Part shown: positions 57,965 to 64,000 of the stretch, in pieces | Layout: each line of letters starts with the position of its first letter | Numbering within the stretch: position 1 is the first letter of the stretch | NCBI RefSeq assembly: GCF_000686945.1 | Contig: NZ_JMME01000007.1 | Coordinates: 1-64,000 of the forward strand | Direction: 5' to 3' | DNA length: 64,000 nt | Origin: Selenomonas sp. AE3005 | Lineage (GTDB): Bacteria > Bacillota > Negativicutes > Selenomonadales > Selenomonadaceae | Program-made: the position numbers and the translations under genes | Notes under the pieces: generated by a model | What the model was told of the DNA's origin: nothing | Databases searched by the model: none | Seen by the model: the letters and a program-made list of their open reading frames with translations, nothing else

Positions 57965-60019
57965 TCAAAACATCCAGTTTATACCTAATCTCCCCGTAAT
58001 ACCGCGCTGTCTGCCCAGCCAGCCGGTGGCGGATACGTCAACGCTTAAATGGTCATTGCCTTTAGGCTTTACCACCCAGCCAAGTTCCAGCATATAGCTG
58101 CTGCCTCGGAGCTGTGGCGTCTCTGTGCGCAAACCATCATAGGTGGCATAGGCTGAACCATCGAACTCATATTCCCAAGCCAGGCCACAATACAGTTTAT
58201 TCTTTTTATCAAGCTCATAACTATCCCGAATTCCCAAACGCAACCGTTCGCTGTTCACATGGCTCGTTTGATAAAGCTGTCCGTTGCTTAAACGGATATC
58301 CTCAGCCCCGGTATGCGTATAGAAGAATTTCCCATAGTACGTTATTTTATGGCGTGGCTGCCAATTTACTTCCCGTCCTGCGCCCAAATGTGCACCTGCG
58401 TAAAACGTAGATGAGTCAAAGTTTTCATGGGTCTTTTGCCCATTATAAACATAGTCGTTTGTGGAGTAATCCAAATTCAGCCTGCCGCCCCGCAAACTGC
58501 CCTCATAGAAACTGCCGTCCTTAAAGGTGTTGCGGAAAACAAAGCCTATACCGTAATATCTGCTATTGCCCTGACCGCAAGTGCCCTCATCTAAGCAGGC
58601 GTCATAATTGCCGTATCCGTATTCAAACACCGGTGCCAACAAAGTGCGCCGGCCATTTTTTTCTGTCTTTTTGGACATGCCCACCACCATGCAGGTGCCT
58701 CTCATGTCCACATACGACCCGGTCGTGTGCCGCATATCGCTGTAGCTTAGTGCATAGAACGGTGTATATACCTGCGCGCCTGCCGCGTCTGCACTTTGCG
58801 CCGCATCACCAGACAGAAAATCCGCACCCCGATTGATAAGCGTCGGCATCTTAGCCTGGACTATACTTTTCGTGGAAAAATGCAGGCGGTTTAAGGCTAC
58901 CACTTTCAGCACCACATGACTGCTGTCTGCCTTATACACCACCAGTTCGTAAAGCTTGCTGTTGATATCCCCCGTTGACAGGCCTGTATCCTTGTGGATA
59001 CCTTGGTAAATCGTCCCGGCCCCAGCGGTCACACCGCTTGCATTTACGAGCAAATTCACGGTTGAACCGAACGGCAAGCTGCCCGTCTTTTCCACGATGC
59101 CCCTGACGGTGCTGGCGCTGATAACAGTAGCATTCCCCCCCACCACTGTTACCAGGGTATCCCCGGACTTAGTGCCCTGGGGCAGATAGAAGTTGTACGT
59201 GTTAAAACCACCCAGTTCCCCCACTTGCTGGTCTTTCACATAAGTATTCAAGGTATTATTGGTGCCCATAAATGGTTTACGGCTGCGGTCAGCCTGATGA
59301 AATACCGCCGCACCATATATTTTGGCAGCTGCCAGTTCCATATTGGCATTGATATTGACGGTGTTATCGTGCAGCCGTGACACCGCATCATCGTCCACCT
59401 TGAATCCTGTGCCATCATCATAATCCTGCGTTTCGGCGGCAATTACATAGTCAGCCAATGCCCCGCCATTCAGATTGATGACATTGCCACTGGCCTCACC
59501 CCGAAAAGCATGACCAGCTATAACATTCATCGCCAGCTTATTGCTGGCAGAAGTGTTATTTATTATCAATTTATTATAATGCGTGCTATCCTGTATCTTT
59601 TGCGGATCATCATAAACCACCCAGCCAGCATTACCGGTATCCACATTGACGATATTGTTAGTTACATTAACCCCCTGTTCATCATGATAGCCACCGTATA
59701 TATCCACAAATGAGTTTGCTCCGTCCAGATTGGCTGTCTTTGTTGTCCCACCTGCCTGATTGTACTCGCCGCCATAAACAGTTATCGGCGTACTGCCTGT
59801 ACCTCTTATATACAGATCACGGCCACCTTGATGGTAACCTTCTTTAATCAAGATAATACGGTTGGGAACTTCAACAATACCATTCTCATTGGCTGGTCCT
59901 GTATCCTCGTGCACATCTGCCTGGGCAATGCCCATCCCCATAGGCCCCCAGACGCAGGCCGTTAACATAAGCATTGCCACTGCCTTATGCAGTTTTCTTT
60001 CCTTCTTGGCGCTGCTCAT
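57965..60019 (-). CDS. Autotransporter downstream of the double-glycine peptide
   Basis: 684 residues. A basic start and hydrophobic core ending GIAQA form the signal peptide. The passenger (about 35-420) has right-handed beta-helix-like text with YGGxH/Y-type motifs such as IYGGYHDEQGVNVTNNIVNV, also seen in the larger autotransporter. The last ~270 residues form the beta-barrel domain, ending GRLGINWMF with a terminal Phe. GGAG lies 7 nt before the ATG. It is the last gene of the export operon. A peptide display or adhesion role is inference. Confidence 0.85.
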   Translation of the reverse strand: MSSAKKERKLHKAVAMLMLTACVWGPMGMGIAQADVHEDTGPANENGIVEVPNRIILIKEGYHQGGRDLYIRGTGSTPITVYGGEYNQAGGTTKTANLDGANSFVDIYGGYHDEQGVNVTNNIVNVDTGNAGWVVYDDPQKIQDSTHYNKLIINNTSASNKLAMNVIAGHAFRGEASGNVINLNGGALADYVIAAETQDYDDGTGFKVDDDAVSRLHDNTVNINANMELAAAKIYGAAVFHQADRSRKPFMGTNNTLNTYVKDQQVGELGGFNTYNFYLPQGTKSGDTLVTVVGGNATVISASTVRGIVEKTGSLPFGSTVNLLVNASGVTAGAGTIYQGIHKDTGLSTGDINSKLYELVVYKADSSHVVLKVVALNRLHFSTKSIVQAKMPTLINRGADFLSGDAAQSADAAGAQVYTPFYALSYSDMRHTTGSYVDMRGTCMVVGMSKKTEKNGRRTLLAPVFEYGYGNYDACLDEGTCGQGNSRYYGIGFVFRNTFKDGSFYEGSLRGGRLNLDYSTNDYVYNGQKTHENFDSSTFYAGAHLGAGREVNWQPRHKITYYGKFFYTHTGAEDIRLSNGQLYQTSHVNSERLRLGIRDSYELDKKNKLYCGLAWEYEFDGSAYATYDGLRTETPQLRGSSYMLELGWVVKPKGNDHLSVDVSATGWLGRQRGITGRLGINWMF

Positions 60020-60030
60020 GTCGATTCTCC

Positions 60031-60189
60031 TTACACGTTGATGATTACGGTAGAACCGATATCCACCGGCTCTTTATTATCCTTAACAACATTTTGTATT
60101 TCGACCTGTGCCCCTCCGGCCACGTCATCCATATTTTCACAGTCCAGTTCCTGCTTTTCCGGCTTTTTAACAGATTCTTTCTCTTTCAT
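60031..60189 (-). CDS. 52-residue double-glycine leader peptide, candidate secreted (bacteriocin-like) product
   Basis: A 52-codon gene with a strong site (AAAGGGGG) before the ATG at 60189. The N-terminal 26 residues form a double-glycine leader: ENMDDVAGG ends at residues 25-26, with hydrophobic residues at -4 (V23), -7 (M20) and -12 (L15) and charged Lys/Glu before. The predicted mature part (27-52) starts AQVEIQNVV, has no Cys and ends STVIINV. It sits in an operon with two NHLM-type export ATPases, of which the first in this family usually carries the leader peptidase. It ends 11 nt before the autotransporter start. Function is inferred; a signalling or bacteriocin-like role is possible. 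Confidence 0.75.
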   Translation of the reverse strand: MKEKESVKKPEKQELDCENMDDVAGGAQVEIQNVVKDNKEPVDIGSTVIINV

Positions 60190-60288
60190 GGTTATCCCCC
60201 TTTCAATCTTCTAACATTGCATTACTGCTTATTACTACTTACGATTGAACCTGCTGGATATTACCAGTTTTTGCCAGTGTATAAAAAC
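60190..60288. other. Gap between the sigma gene and the peptide gene
   Basis: About 100 bp, A/T rich, with short repeats of ACTGG(T/C). It could hold a second promoter for the peptide, for example one used by the adjacent sigma factor; I see TAATAT near 60255 but no reliable partner. Confidence 0.3.
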
Positions 60289-60843: not shown

Positions 60844-63573
60844 CTATGCTACCTGCCGTTTTACCAATCTGGCAAAAATCCCGTTTTGGGCTAAAAGTTC
60901 ATCGTAAGTGCCGCTTTCCACCAGTCGCCCCTTATCCATGACCAGTATGCGGTCACATTCACGGATAGTGGACAGCCGGTGAGCAATCACAATTCTCGTG
61001 GTTTTAAGTTTGTTCAGACTCTCCGTCACAATAGCCTGTGTACGGTTGTCGAGCGCACTGGTAGCCTCGTCAAAAATCAAAATGGACGGCTTGCCGGCCA
61101 AAGCCCTGGCAATCATCAGCCGCTGCCGCTGGCCGCCGGAAATATTGTTGGAACCTTCGCTGATTACCGTCTGCATGCCCATAGGCATTTCCCGGATATC
61201 TTCGGCAATGCCGGCCGCCTCGGCGGCCACCCAGGCATCATCCTGGGTGAGCGGTGCCTGCCCCACAATATTGGTGAAGATATCGCCGCTCATCAGCTGA
61301 CCGTTTTGCAGTACCACGCCCATCTGGGAACGCACCGACGGCGGTGACAACTCGGCCAGGGACTGGCCGTCATAATAAATAGCGCCGCTTTTCGGCTGTT
61401 CAAAACCTAACAGCAGCCGCACCAAAGTGGATTTACCGCAGCCGGAATGCCCCACAATGGCGACATTTTCGCCCGGTGCCACCTGAAAGCTCACGTCCTG
61501 CAGCACATCTTTTTTCCCTTCCCCATAGGCGAAGGTCAGATGGCTGACTTCAATAGCCCCGGACAGGGGGTCGGCCTCCTGTTTATCCTCGGTGGTCTCC
61601 GGCACTTCCTCCAAGAGCGGCCGCAGATTCTCGATATGCGGCTGAATGGTAAAGAAGGTGCCCACCAGGGGAATCACCGCATTGAGGGTGGCATTAAACG
61701 AGCTGAAAGCCGCCTCAAAGGCCATGAACTGCGCATAGCCAATCCCCTCCTTGACCATCTGGCCGCCGCTGCCATCAGGCACCGTTTCCTGCATGCCGTA
61801 AACCACTATATAATACAACAGCATGGTCAGAATAAAGGGCTGGGCTGCCGCAATAATGGTATTGTAATTGCCCTGCCAGCGCAGTGCCAGATTCCATTTC
61901 CACGTTTCCCCAAAAACCTTGCTCCAGAGATGGTAGGCCTGCTCCTCGGCCCCATGCACCCGAAACTTTCCCAGGCCGGAAAAAATCTGCTGTACCAGAC
62001 CGGCCTCGGCATTGTTGGCCGCGATGAGTTTGCGCTGAAAGCTCAGCACCCGCCGATAGACAAAAGCCGTAATCAGGCACCAGACGAGCCAGATTACCAT
62101 GGCCGCCGCCGTGAGCTTGACGCTGTACCAGCACATGAGGATAAGGCTCCAAAAAGAGAACACCGTATTAAAGACAGCGCTCACAAAATTACCGCTGACC
62201 ACATCTTTTACGGCCTCAATGCCGCGCATACGGCTGGCCAGTTCTCCCGTGGTAAACTGATGGAAAAACTTAAGCGGCAAGGTCAGGAGCCGTCCCCACA
62301 AGGCCGCCTCCACGGCCATATTCAGGTGGAGACTGATACGCATAACCGCCACTGTCCGAATCATGGTCAGTGCCGCCATGGTAAAACTGGTCACCATCAT
62401 CACCTGCGTGACCGTCACCAGCCCTTCCCTGTCCAGAATGGGCAGTATATCCTGAAAGATGGTTTCCGTAATAACAGGGCTGACCAAAGGAATAAGCCCG
62501 GCAAAGAAACTCACCAGGAGGATTGTCCGATAGTCCGCCTTCCAGCACTGCTGAAACATAAAGCGCATTAAATCCATGATTTTGAGCTTGCGCCGGGGAA
62601 AACCTGCATAGCAGATAAAGGCGTCTTTATCCAATTGGGCAGCCTGCTCTGCGGTCAGACGTATCCCCTGGGGATTTTTTCTCGTCACCAGCTTATATAG
62701 ACCAGGCCGCTCCGGAATAAGCGCCGCAATCTCCTTGTCCGCCCCATAGTAGGCAATGAATACGCCCGTGTCATTTTTATGCCAGCCAGTCTCATCGAGC
62801 CGCACGAGCCGCAGCTGCACATTGGCCTTTTGCGCCAGCCGCCGCAGCAGGGACAGGGAATCCAGCTTTTTGGCAATATCAGGAGATAAATTGATATCCG
62901 CCTCCTGCATCGACAAGGCTTTCATCACGAGTTTCAGAATAAAAATATTTTCTTCTACCGCCTTGCCCCCCTGCTCGGTGCTGCTCTCCTCGTAATATAT
63001 TTCGTCCTCCCCCAGCAGGTTGCTGATGGCATTTTTCACCAGCCAGTTTTTCTGTCTGGCAATGATTTCCTGCCGCCGGCGCAGCCGCTTGTCCGCTGAC
63101 AAAAAGCGCATGCCCTGCAGCATGGTAAAAATCTGCTGATGCCGCTTGAATTCTTTCAGCAATTCCTGCGTGCTGGCTGTCCCTGCCGGAAACATTTCCC
63201 CCTGCGGCCACAGGACGAGCATATCATCTCCCAGAGCCGCCAGCCGGTTGAGCCAGCTGATTTTTCCGAGCGCCATAAACCAGGCCTGCATAAGCGGCTG
63301 CAATTCCTGCGGCGCCGTCCCGGCAAAAGTTTTTTCCGTCAGCGAGCTATCTGTCACAGCATAAATAAGGATATCCATTTCGCCAAACTCGTCCATTGAC
63401 GGAAAAATCGCCTGCCCGGCCTCAATTTTCAGCAAATAAGCCTGCCGATAATGGCGTTCGTCCCGGGTAACGGCATAAACTTCCACCTGTCCGGCTGTAA
63501 GCACCAGAAAACTATCTTCACTTGTCAGCTGCCAGCGCCGGCCTGCCTGTAATTCCATACCATCACAACCCAC
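60844..63573 (-). CDS. NHLM/NHLP-type bacteriocin export ABC transporter, permease-ATPase
   Basis: 909 residues. The N-terminal third is a cNMP-binding-like/peptidase-less domain without the C39 active site, followed by six membrane helices (about 350-600) and an ABC ATPase with Walker A GHSGCGKST, signature ISGGQRQRL and Walker [13 protein letters not shown]. This matches the second ABC subunit of NHLM/NHLP leader-peptide export systems. The start is uncertain: GTG at 63573 or ATG at 63558. It follows the first ABC gene by 13 nt. Confidence 0.9.
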   Translation of the reverse strand: MGCDGMELQAGRRWQLTSEDSFLVLTAGQVEVYAVTRDERHYRQAYLLKIEAGQAIFPSMDEFGEMDILIYAVTDSSLTEKTFAGTAPQELQPLMQAWFMALGKISWLNRLAALGDDMLVLWPQGEMFPAGTASTQELLKEFKRHQQIFTMLQGMRFLSADKRLRRRQEIIARQKNWLVKNAISNLLGEDEIYYEESSTEQGGKAVEENIFILKLVMKALSMQEADINLSPDIAKKLDSLSLLRRLAQKANVQLRLVRLDETGWHKNDTGVFIAYYGADKEIAALIPERPGLYKLVTRKNPQGIRLTAEQAAQLDKDAFICYAGFPRRKLKIMDLMRFMFQQCWKADYRTILLVSFFAGLIPLVSPVITETIFQDILPILDREGLVTVTQVMMVTSFTMAALTMIRTVAVMRISLHLNMAVEAALWGRLLTLPLKFFHQFTTGELASRMRGIEAVKDVVSGNFVSAVFNTVFSFWSLILMCWYSVKLTAAAMVIWLVWCLITAFVYRRVLSFQRKLIAANNAEAGLVQQIFSGLGKFRVHGAEEQAYHLWSKVFGETWKWNLALRWQGNYNTIIAAAQPFILTMLLYYIVVYGMQETVPDGSGGQMVKEGIGYAQFMAFEAAFSSFNATLNAVIPLVGTFFTIQPHIENLRPLLEEVPETTEDKQEADPLSGAIEVSHLTFAYGEGKKDVLQDVSFQVAPGENVAIVGHSGCGKSTLVRLLLGFEQPKSGAIYYDGQSLAELSPPSVRSQMGVVLQNGQLMSGDIFTNIVGQAPLTQDDAWVAAEAAGIAEDIREMPMGMQTVISEGSNNISGGQRQRLMIARALAGKPSILIFDEATSALDNRTQAIVTESLNKLKTTRIVIAHRLSTIRECDRILVMDKGRLVESGTYDELLAQNGIFARLVKRQVA

Positions 63574-63586
63574 AATCTCTTATCTA

Positions 63587-64000
63587 TCACTTGCTGCTAT
63601 GTTCCTCAATCAAACGGCGGTAAGGCCCATCCTGTGCCATCATATCCCGATGACGGCCGCGTTCCACTATCCGGCCGTGTTCCAAGACGATAATCTCATC
63701 TGCGTCCCGAATGGTGGACAGCCGATGGGCGATAATCACGCAGGCACAGCCCCGGTGACGGATATTTTCCAGTACCTTTTCCTCCGTAATGGGGTCCAGG
63801 GCGCTGGTGGCCTCGTCCAGTACCAGCAGGGAAGGATTCACGGCCAGAGCCCGGGCAATTTCGAGCCGCTGCCGCTGGCCGCCGCTGAAGTTGTTGCCGC
63901 CTTCCGAAACCATAGCCTCATAGCCGCCCTCGAGCTGCAGGATATCTTCGTGAATACAGGCGTCCTTGGCCGCCCGGACAATATCACTTTGCCGCAGGGA
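63587..64000 (-). CDS. NHLM-type peptidase/ABC exporter, 3' part (gene continues beyond the window)
   Basis: Only the end of the ATPase domain is inside the window, with [16 protein letters not shown] (signature), [12 protein letters not shown] (Walker B) and the H-loop [12 protein letters not shown]. The reading frame is open to the window edge, with [15 protein letters not shown] as in the first ABC subunit of NHLM systems. In those systems this subunit has an N-terminal C39 peptidase domain that cleaves double-glycine leaders; that part lies outside the window. Confidence 0.85.

Follow-up and report, generated by a model that had tools for sequence, protein, structure and literature searches.

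The window (the whole 64,000-nucleotide stretch of Selenomonas sp. AE3005 DNA analysed here) ends inside an export gene cluster whose transcription order is RND-type adaptor, four peptides (P1 to P4), HlyD-type adaptor, ABC1, ABC2, ECF-type sigma factor, a fifth peptide (P5) and an autotransporter. The features are listed below by position; those beyond 64,000 lie on the same contig, past the end of the window.

57965 to 60019, minus strand: 684-aa autotransporter, beta passenger and 12-strand-type barrel (TIGR01414, 34.5 bits, cut-off 16)
60031 to 60189, minus strand: P5 peptide gene, 52 aa, ATG start (open reading frame, homologues in 9 of 189 family genomes, pN/pS)
60034 to 60111, minus strand: P5 core, 26 residues (mean pairwise identity 53.5%, nine orthologues)
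60112 to 60189, minus strand: P5 double-glycine leader, 26 residues, with L-12, M-7, V-4 and GG (sequence; contacts in a C39-leader complex, available text of PMC6363468)
60196 to 60203, minus strand: ribosome site of P5, AAAGGGGG (sequence)
60240 to 60264, minus strand: ECF-like promoter motif GTAAT-N15-TCGTA, 50 nt before P5
60289 to 60834, minus strand: ECF-type sigma factor, 181 aa (TIGR02937, 115.5 bits, cut-off 42.9; PF04542, PF08281)
60844 to 63573, minus strand: ABC2, NHLM type without peptidase (TIGR03797, 754.1 bits, cut-off 709.4)
63587 to 65797, minus strand: ABC1, C39 peptidase, permease and ATPase (TIGR03796, PF03412); its C-terminal part is in the window at 63587 to 64000
65794 to 66753: HlyD-type adaptor (TIGR03794, 226.5 bits, cut-off 156.2)
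66869 to 68128: double-glycine (GG) peptides P1 to P4
68219 to 69415: RND-type adaptor (TIGR01730)

The initial annotation had placed a short secreted peptide at 60031-60189, without giving a strand, in an operon with two NHLM-type ABC transporters. Both the 52-aa frame, which starts with ATG on the minus strand, and the two transporters are indeed there: ABC2 and ABC1 (967.3 bits against TIGR03796, cut-off 853.3) score above the cut-offs of their models. Moreover, beyond the window ABC1, the first ABC subunit, carries the Peptidase_C39 domain (PF03412, E 1.4e-32) whose absence the annotation had named as an argument against its proposal. With a C39-bearing ABC1, an ABC2 and a HlyD-type adaptor all above cut-offs, the transporter is of a known kind, an NHLM/NHLP-type export system. 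No TolC was seen in the P5 cluster, and no modification enzyme was found among the cluster genes scanned (autotransporter, sigma factor, ABC2, ABC1, HlyD-type adaptor, RND-type adaptor and the leader-mimic gene described below).

The P5 leader, ELDCENMDDVAGG, presents hydrophobic residues at -4, -7 and -12 (V, M and L) before the VAGG site, as annotated, with GG at -2/-1, which is the pattern of C39 substrates; in a solved complex of a C39 peptidase with a leader, these three positions sit in a hydrophobic groove, according to the available text of the source (PMC6363468). The core, AQVEIQNVVKDNKEPVDIGSTVIINV, has 26 residues and contains one Ser, one Thr and, again as annotated, no Cys. The ribosome site exists as well; described as strong, it is moderate, just four consecutive bases matching AAGGAGG. 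The beta-rich character attributed to the core found no confirmation, the structure predicted from the nine aligned orthologues being uninformative on the fold (mean pLDDT 53.5). P5 has no family match in NCBIfam and Pfam at E <= 10, which includes bacteriocin family models and the NHLP and Nif11 leader models TIGR03793 and TIGR03798.

Without a ribosome-site filter, the leader pattern occurs in 3 of 522 short open reading frames of the window, where 30 random windows average 1.4. When ATG and a ribosome site are required, it occurs in 3 of 124, where 60 random windows average 0.32 and 19 of them contain such a frame. We thus rejected the pattern alone as proof of P5, whose case rests on context and conservation. 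Taken together, these data support the existence of a conserved peptide gene with a GG leader within an export operon of NHLM type.

Conservation of the P5 family

A profile built from three orthologues was used to search 189 Selenomonadaceae genomes. Strong matches (E <= 2.3e-11) were obtained in nine genomes from four genera, i.e., the window's genome, G003, G076, five genomes of genus g13 and one of g3, and 25 of the 189 genomes had a match at E <= 0.05. When 380 genomes of the class were searched with the P5 profile, 18 were detected at E <= 0.001; only the same nine reached E <= 2.8e-17, and 2.4e-6 was the best value among the rest. The GG is kept in eight of the nine aligned orthologues and is replaced by GS in L197. 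In the g13 and g3 relatives the core is preceded by a longer N-terminus, of 94-99 residues in five of them, the start of the sixth (L197) being uncertain.

For seven orthologues (without those of G136 and G144), pN/pS calculated over the last 39 codons ranges from 0.22 to 0.51 across all 21 pairs; the ratios are rough because synonymous sites are near saturation. P5 is thus under purifying selection at the protein level, and this conservation (9/189 genomes, pN/pS) makes it more than a chance occurrence. Mean pairwise identity among the nine orthologues is 22% before KQELD and 56% from KQELD to the GG; the core, at 53.5%, is conserved as well as this end of the leader, which suggests a fixed partner. 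The cores that follow the GG in the NHLP and Nif11 families are, by contrast, described as highly variable in the available text of PMC2887384.

Association with an autotransporter

The autotransporter gene starts 11 nt after P5 in the window. Its product has no Pfam match; the predicted structure (pLDDT 78.9) combines a beta passenger, at about residues 53-380, with a C-terminal barrel of the kind found in type Va autotransporters, superposable on NalP (1uyn) with Z 31.1 and rmsd 2.1 over 271 aligned residues, structure searches having covered mainly the barrel and barely the passenger. An autotransporter frame directly follows P5 in eight of the nine genomes, disrupted near its 5′ end in G136 and cut by a contig end in G122; in G144, P5 is followed by just the first 30 autotransporter residues and then by other DNA. 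The disruption near the start of the frame in L197 and the 30 residues left after P5 in L198 could reflect either decay or an assembly fault.

Seen from the autotransporter, the association concerns one subfamily. The alignment matches 108 of the 189 genomes at E <= 1e-15; the 11 best matches (E <= 3.2e-147) stand apart from the rest, the next being at 1.1e-116. P5 lies upstream in eight of these 11; two others are cut by contig ends (G193 and G112) and the last one, G194, has lost the start of the passenger and is without P5 over the stretch read. None of 19 other autotransporter loci, L223-L241, has a GG open reading frame with a ribosome site within flanks of up to 1.5 kb. The two genes also come and go together among the eight loci with the nearest ABC2 (the window, L041-L046 and L122; ABC2 at least 78% identical or the window's own): both are present in the window, L042 and L045, and both are absent between the sigma factor and the next gene block in L041, L044, L046 and L122, the eighth locus (L043) being cut. 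In L122, another leader peptide occupies this interval. The P5 gene is therefore paired with one autotransporter subfamily across four genera.

We also considered that the P5 core might be a copy of a passenger rung, an idea dropped since comparison of the P5 and autotransporter profiles revealed no similarity. Our literature search, which left most subscription journals outside, returned no description of the P5-autotransporter pairing, of NHLM peptides of Selenomonas, of the P5 peptide family or of the motif shared with other peptide genes (see below).

Sister peptides and a leader-mimic family

P1 to P4 are four longer sister peptides that have their leader in common with P5. They and their relatives share, besides this leader, an Asn-rich tail (QNNSNNxGxQQNxxxG), and Asn makes up 13-23% of the P1-P4 cores. 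One of them, P3, shares the P5 core motif; its alignment with P5 spans both leader and core (hhalign 97%, E 1.2e-10), the leader supplying part of the score. A sister-type peptide from another genome (L195:2846-3316) has a Nif11-type leader (TIGR03798, 42.9 bits, cut-off 32.3). The candidate for a new class of secreted peptide proposed by the initial annotation is confirmed as a GG-leader gene and too narrow as a class, P5 being one of five GG peptides in the cluster, with more elsewhere in the genome. What sets P5 apart, and is not visible from the window by itself, is a core as conserved as the leader end, the pairing with an autotransporter in four genera and a motif common to other GG-peptide genes.

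A family of 58-90 aa proteins (DFSxFSKVKDSL...ELSxDELDxVAAAG) is encoded beside NHLM clusters, with a member in the window's genome (L013:13508-13684, i.e., contig C6:69507-69683, plus strand) and relatives in L042, L044, L045, L058, L090, L095, L121-L126, L130 and L196. Towards the C-terminus they follow the register of a GG leader, with AA at -2/-1 in 15 of 15 aligned members, of which six could have been selected for those alanines by the search pattern and nine match its other part. From these sequences, the family is possibly an uncleavable leader mimic coupling the state of the transporter to the sigma factor.

A promoter-like motif upstream of GG-peptide genes

The motif GTAAT-N15-TCGTA, which we take to resemble ECF-type promoters, was found in the region before P5 and in the divergent region at the cluster's opposite end. 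It has a single match in the window, with 0.07 expected and a match in 7 of 100 shuffles. Four of its five sites in the window's genome precede P5, P2, an orphan GG gene and the leader-mimic gene; the fifth (C7:7815) is not followed by a GG gene. The motif is not over-represented, neither in this genome (5 sites against 10 of its reversal) nor in seven other genomes (63 against 61), so that the evidence is positional, and we used the position of the sites together with a control. Across the collected loci, 22 of 168 distinct GG or leader-mimic open reading frames have the motif upstream, against 0 of 672 other frames; the reversed motif precedes 0 of the 168. This set includes closely related loci as well as the sites that served to derive the motif. 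The seven other genomes had been selected for the GG peptides seen in them, and two (G003 and G076) contributed to the definition of the motif. There, 24 of 60 site contexts have a GG gene (20) or a leader-mimic gene (4) within about 105 nt, against 0 of 30 reversed sites (30 of 61 examined). In this count identical contexts were merged, one gene accounts for two of the 24 sites and the L306/L307 site was counted twice, once as a miss.

Among the nine P5 operons, the exact motif is close to P5 only in the window. A one-base variant lies 58 nt from P5 in L045, a site is found about 1 kb upstream in L042, L195 and L198, and no site exists upstream of P5 in L193, L194, L196 and L197 over the 262, 1259, 733 and 272 nt searched, respectively. 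Another sigma factor may read the motif, since it precedes a GG gene in G017, which has no ABC2 match at E <= 1e-90, and GG genes in G011 and G013, which have only more distant ABC2 proteins (52-60%).

Near such genes, a 123-aa protein whose start resembles a signal peptide (SQDFxLENGTGRTIxYxYLSP...) is encoded repeatedly (L194:741-1112, L044:13879-14250, L243:4720-5091). The L194 copy has no Pfam match, and the L044 gene has the motif 55 nt upstream.

Possible function of P5

The P5 gene very probably makes a secreted peptide. Our preferred reading, to which we give slightly better than even chances, is that P5 is a GG-leader peptide exported by the NHLM type I machine and acting at the cell surface with the co-encoded autotransporter. 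P5 and the autotransporter gene would be cotranscribed from the ECF-type promoter 50 nt upstream of P5, most probably served by the sigma factor of the cluster or a paralogue. Once P5 is translated, the C39 domain of ABC1 would remove the 26-residue leader, and the 26-residue core would leave through ABC1, ABC2 and the HlyD-type and RND-type adaptors, with a TolC presumably supplied from elsewhere. Because of the pairing and the conserved core, we infer that the core works at the surface together with the autotransporter encoded next to it, probably as a ligand of the beta passenger; P5 and the Asn-rich sister peptides may build or decorate a surface or matrix structure. This arrangement suggests that two export routes deliver parts of a single surface structure.

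A more specific form of this proposal, which we put forward tentatively and as falling short of even chances, is that a type I (NHLM/C39) peptide serves as the dedicated, co-encoded partner of a type V passenger, on which it would dock as a cap, a co-subunit or a nucleation point for the Asn-rich sisters, under ECF sigma control, with the uncleavable leader mimic possibly reporting the state of the transporter to the sigma factor. The adjacency of P5 and the autotransporter could also serve regulation only.

P5 and its sisters might instead be microcin-like bacteriocins exported by the NHLM machine beside an unrelated autotransporter. The names of the transporter models refer to bacteriocin export, several paralogous peptides are encoded per cluster and, by eye, some sister cores start with a hydrophobic or amphipathic stretch. 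However, no bacteriocin model matches P5, no immunity gene was recognised on unsystematic inspection, the conservation of the core across four genera contrasts with the variable NHLP and Nif11 cores in the available text of PMC2887384, and the pairing with the autotransporter would be left unexplained; we consider bacteriocins unlikely. P5 could also be an extracellular signal: the exported core would be perceived either directly or by way of a dCache-type sensor phosphatase, with feedback on the ECF sigma factor. The ECF-like motif before P5 agrees with this, as does a dCache-HAMP-SpoIIE protein encoded after the autotransporter gene in L196 and L242, but there is no such sensor beside the autotransporter in the window's cluster, and, unless the passenger serves as the receptor, a signal alone does not account for why P5 is paired with a surface protein of 684 aa, which leaves signalling with a low probability.

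The closeness of the autotransporter start to the P5 stop, with 11 nt between them in the window, would fit a translated upstream frame that mainly couples translation of the autotransporter gene and whose peptide does little. We consider this quite improbable: the core is under purifying selection as a protein, such a role would not call for a GG leader with C39 contacts, and P3 has the same core motif far from the autotransporter gene. Finally, a RiPP precursor modified by enzymes encoded elsewhere is the least probable, and very much so: NHLM transporters often serve modified peptides (available text of PMC2887384), but no modification enzyme was found among the cluster genes scanned and the core offers no Cys and just one Ser and one Thr.

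Comparison with known systems

Four known systems can be compared with the P5 cluster. It shares with NHLM/NHLP export (available text of PMC2887384) the components detected by TIGR03794, TIGR03796 and TIGR03797 above cut-offs, the GG leaders and, in the sister-type peptide of another genome, a Nif11-type leader. It differs by the lack of a modification enzyme among the genes scanned, by a P5 peptide with no match to the NHLP and Nif11 leader models and a core that is conserved rather than hypervariable, and by the pairing with an autotransporter. The NHLM models, named for bacteriocin export, describe the machine and not its cargo; in rumen diderm Firmicutes, this machine now has a family of cargo peptides whose core is conserved, together with a candidate partner protein, and sites of the promoter-like motif often point to further cargo genes.

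The barrel of the P5 partner relates it to type Va autotransporters (NalP, EstA, EspP, AIDA-I), for which we know of no dedicated type I-secreted peptide partner. In the functional-amyloid systems curli and Fap, small secreted subunits rich in Asn, Gln and Gly are encoded beside a dedicated outer-membrane protein, and these subunits reach the periplasm by Sec. In contrast, the P5 leader is of the C39 type and its outer-membrane protein is an autotransporter. Should P5 bind the passenger, a single surface assembly would unite type I and type V secretion. The leader-mimic protein offers a simple idea of how export systems could sense their own export.

In Synechococcus elongatus, the small GG proteins EbfG1-4 are exported with the C39 transporter PteB and enable biofilm formation, EbfG1-3 being prone to form amyloid, according to the available text of PMC4997328 and PMC9981879. 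Several small GG proteins with a C39 transporter are likewise present here, a likeness at the level of description, and no autotransporter partner is described in the available text of these two sources. By this likeness to EbfG1-4, a matrix role is suggested for P5 and its sisters.

Further peptides of NHLM-type clusters

The window's genome has a second NHLM-type cluster, L121 (G000:C2:272000-291900), which encodes a TolC (PF02321, E 3.4e-61), an ABC2 relative, an ECF-type sigma factor, a leader-mimic protein, a dCache-HAMP-SpoIIE phosphatase and a 111-aa protein that looks STAS-like by eye. GG proteins of about 100-180 aa are encoded in NHLM-type clusters of other Selenomonadaceae (L070, L077, L082, L097 and L127), together with Nif11-leader peptides with a conserved two-Cys core (ACAYIGVGFG...FCIIIGGSDGPVAG); PF07862 is detected in the L070 and L082 members and not in that of L127. 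Additional GG-peptide genes are located on contigs C5, C8, C10 and C16 of the window's genome (L204-L207, L209). Several of their products have anionic, amphipathic-looking cores (MMDKKELNxMELDxVAGGSW...), and the gene on C10 carries the promoter-like motif 49-55 nt upstream.
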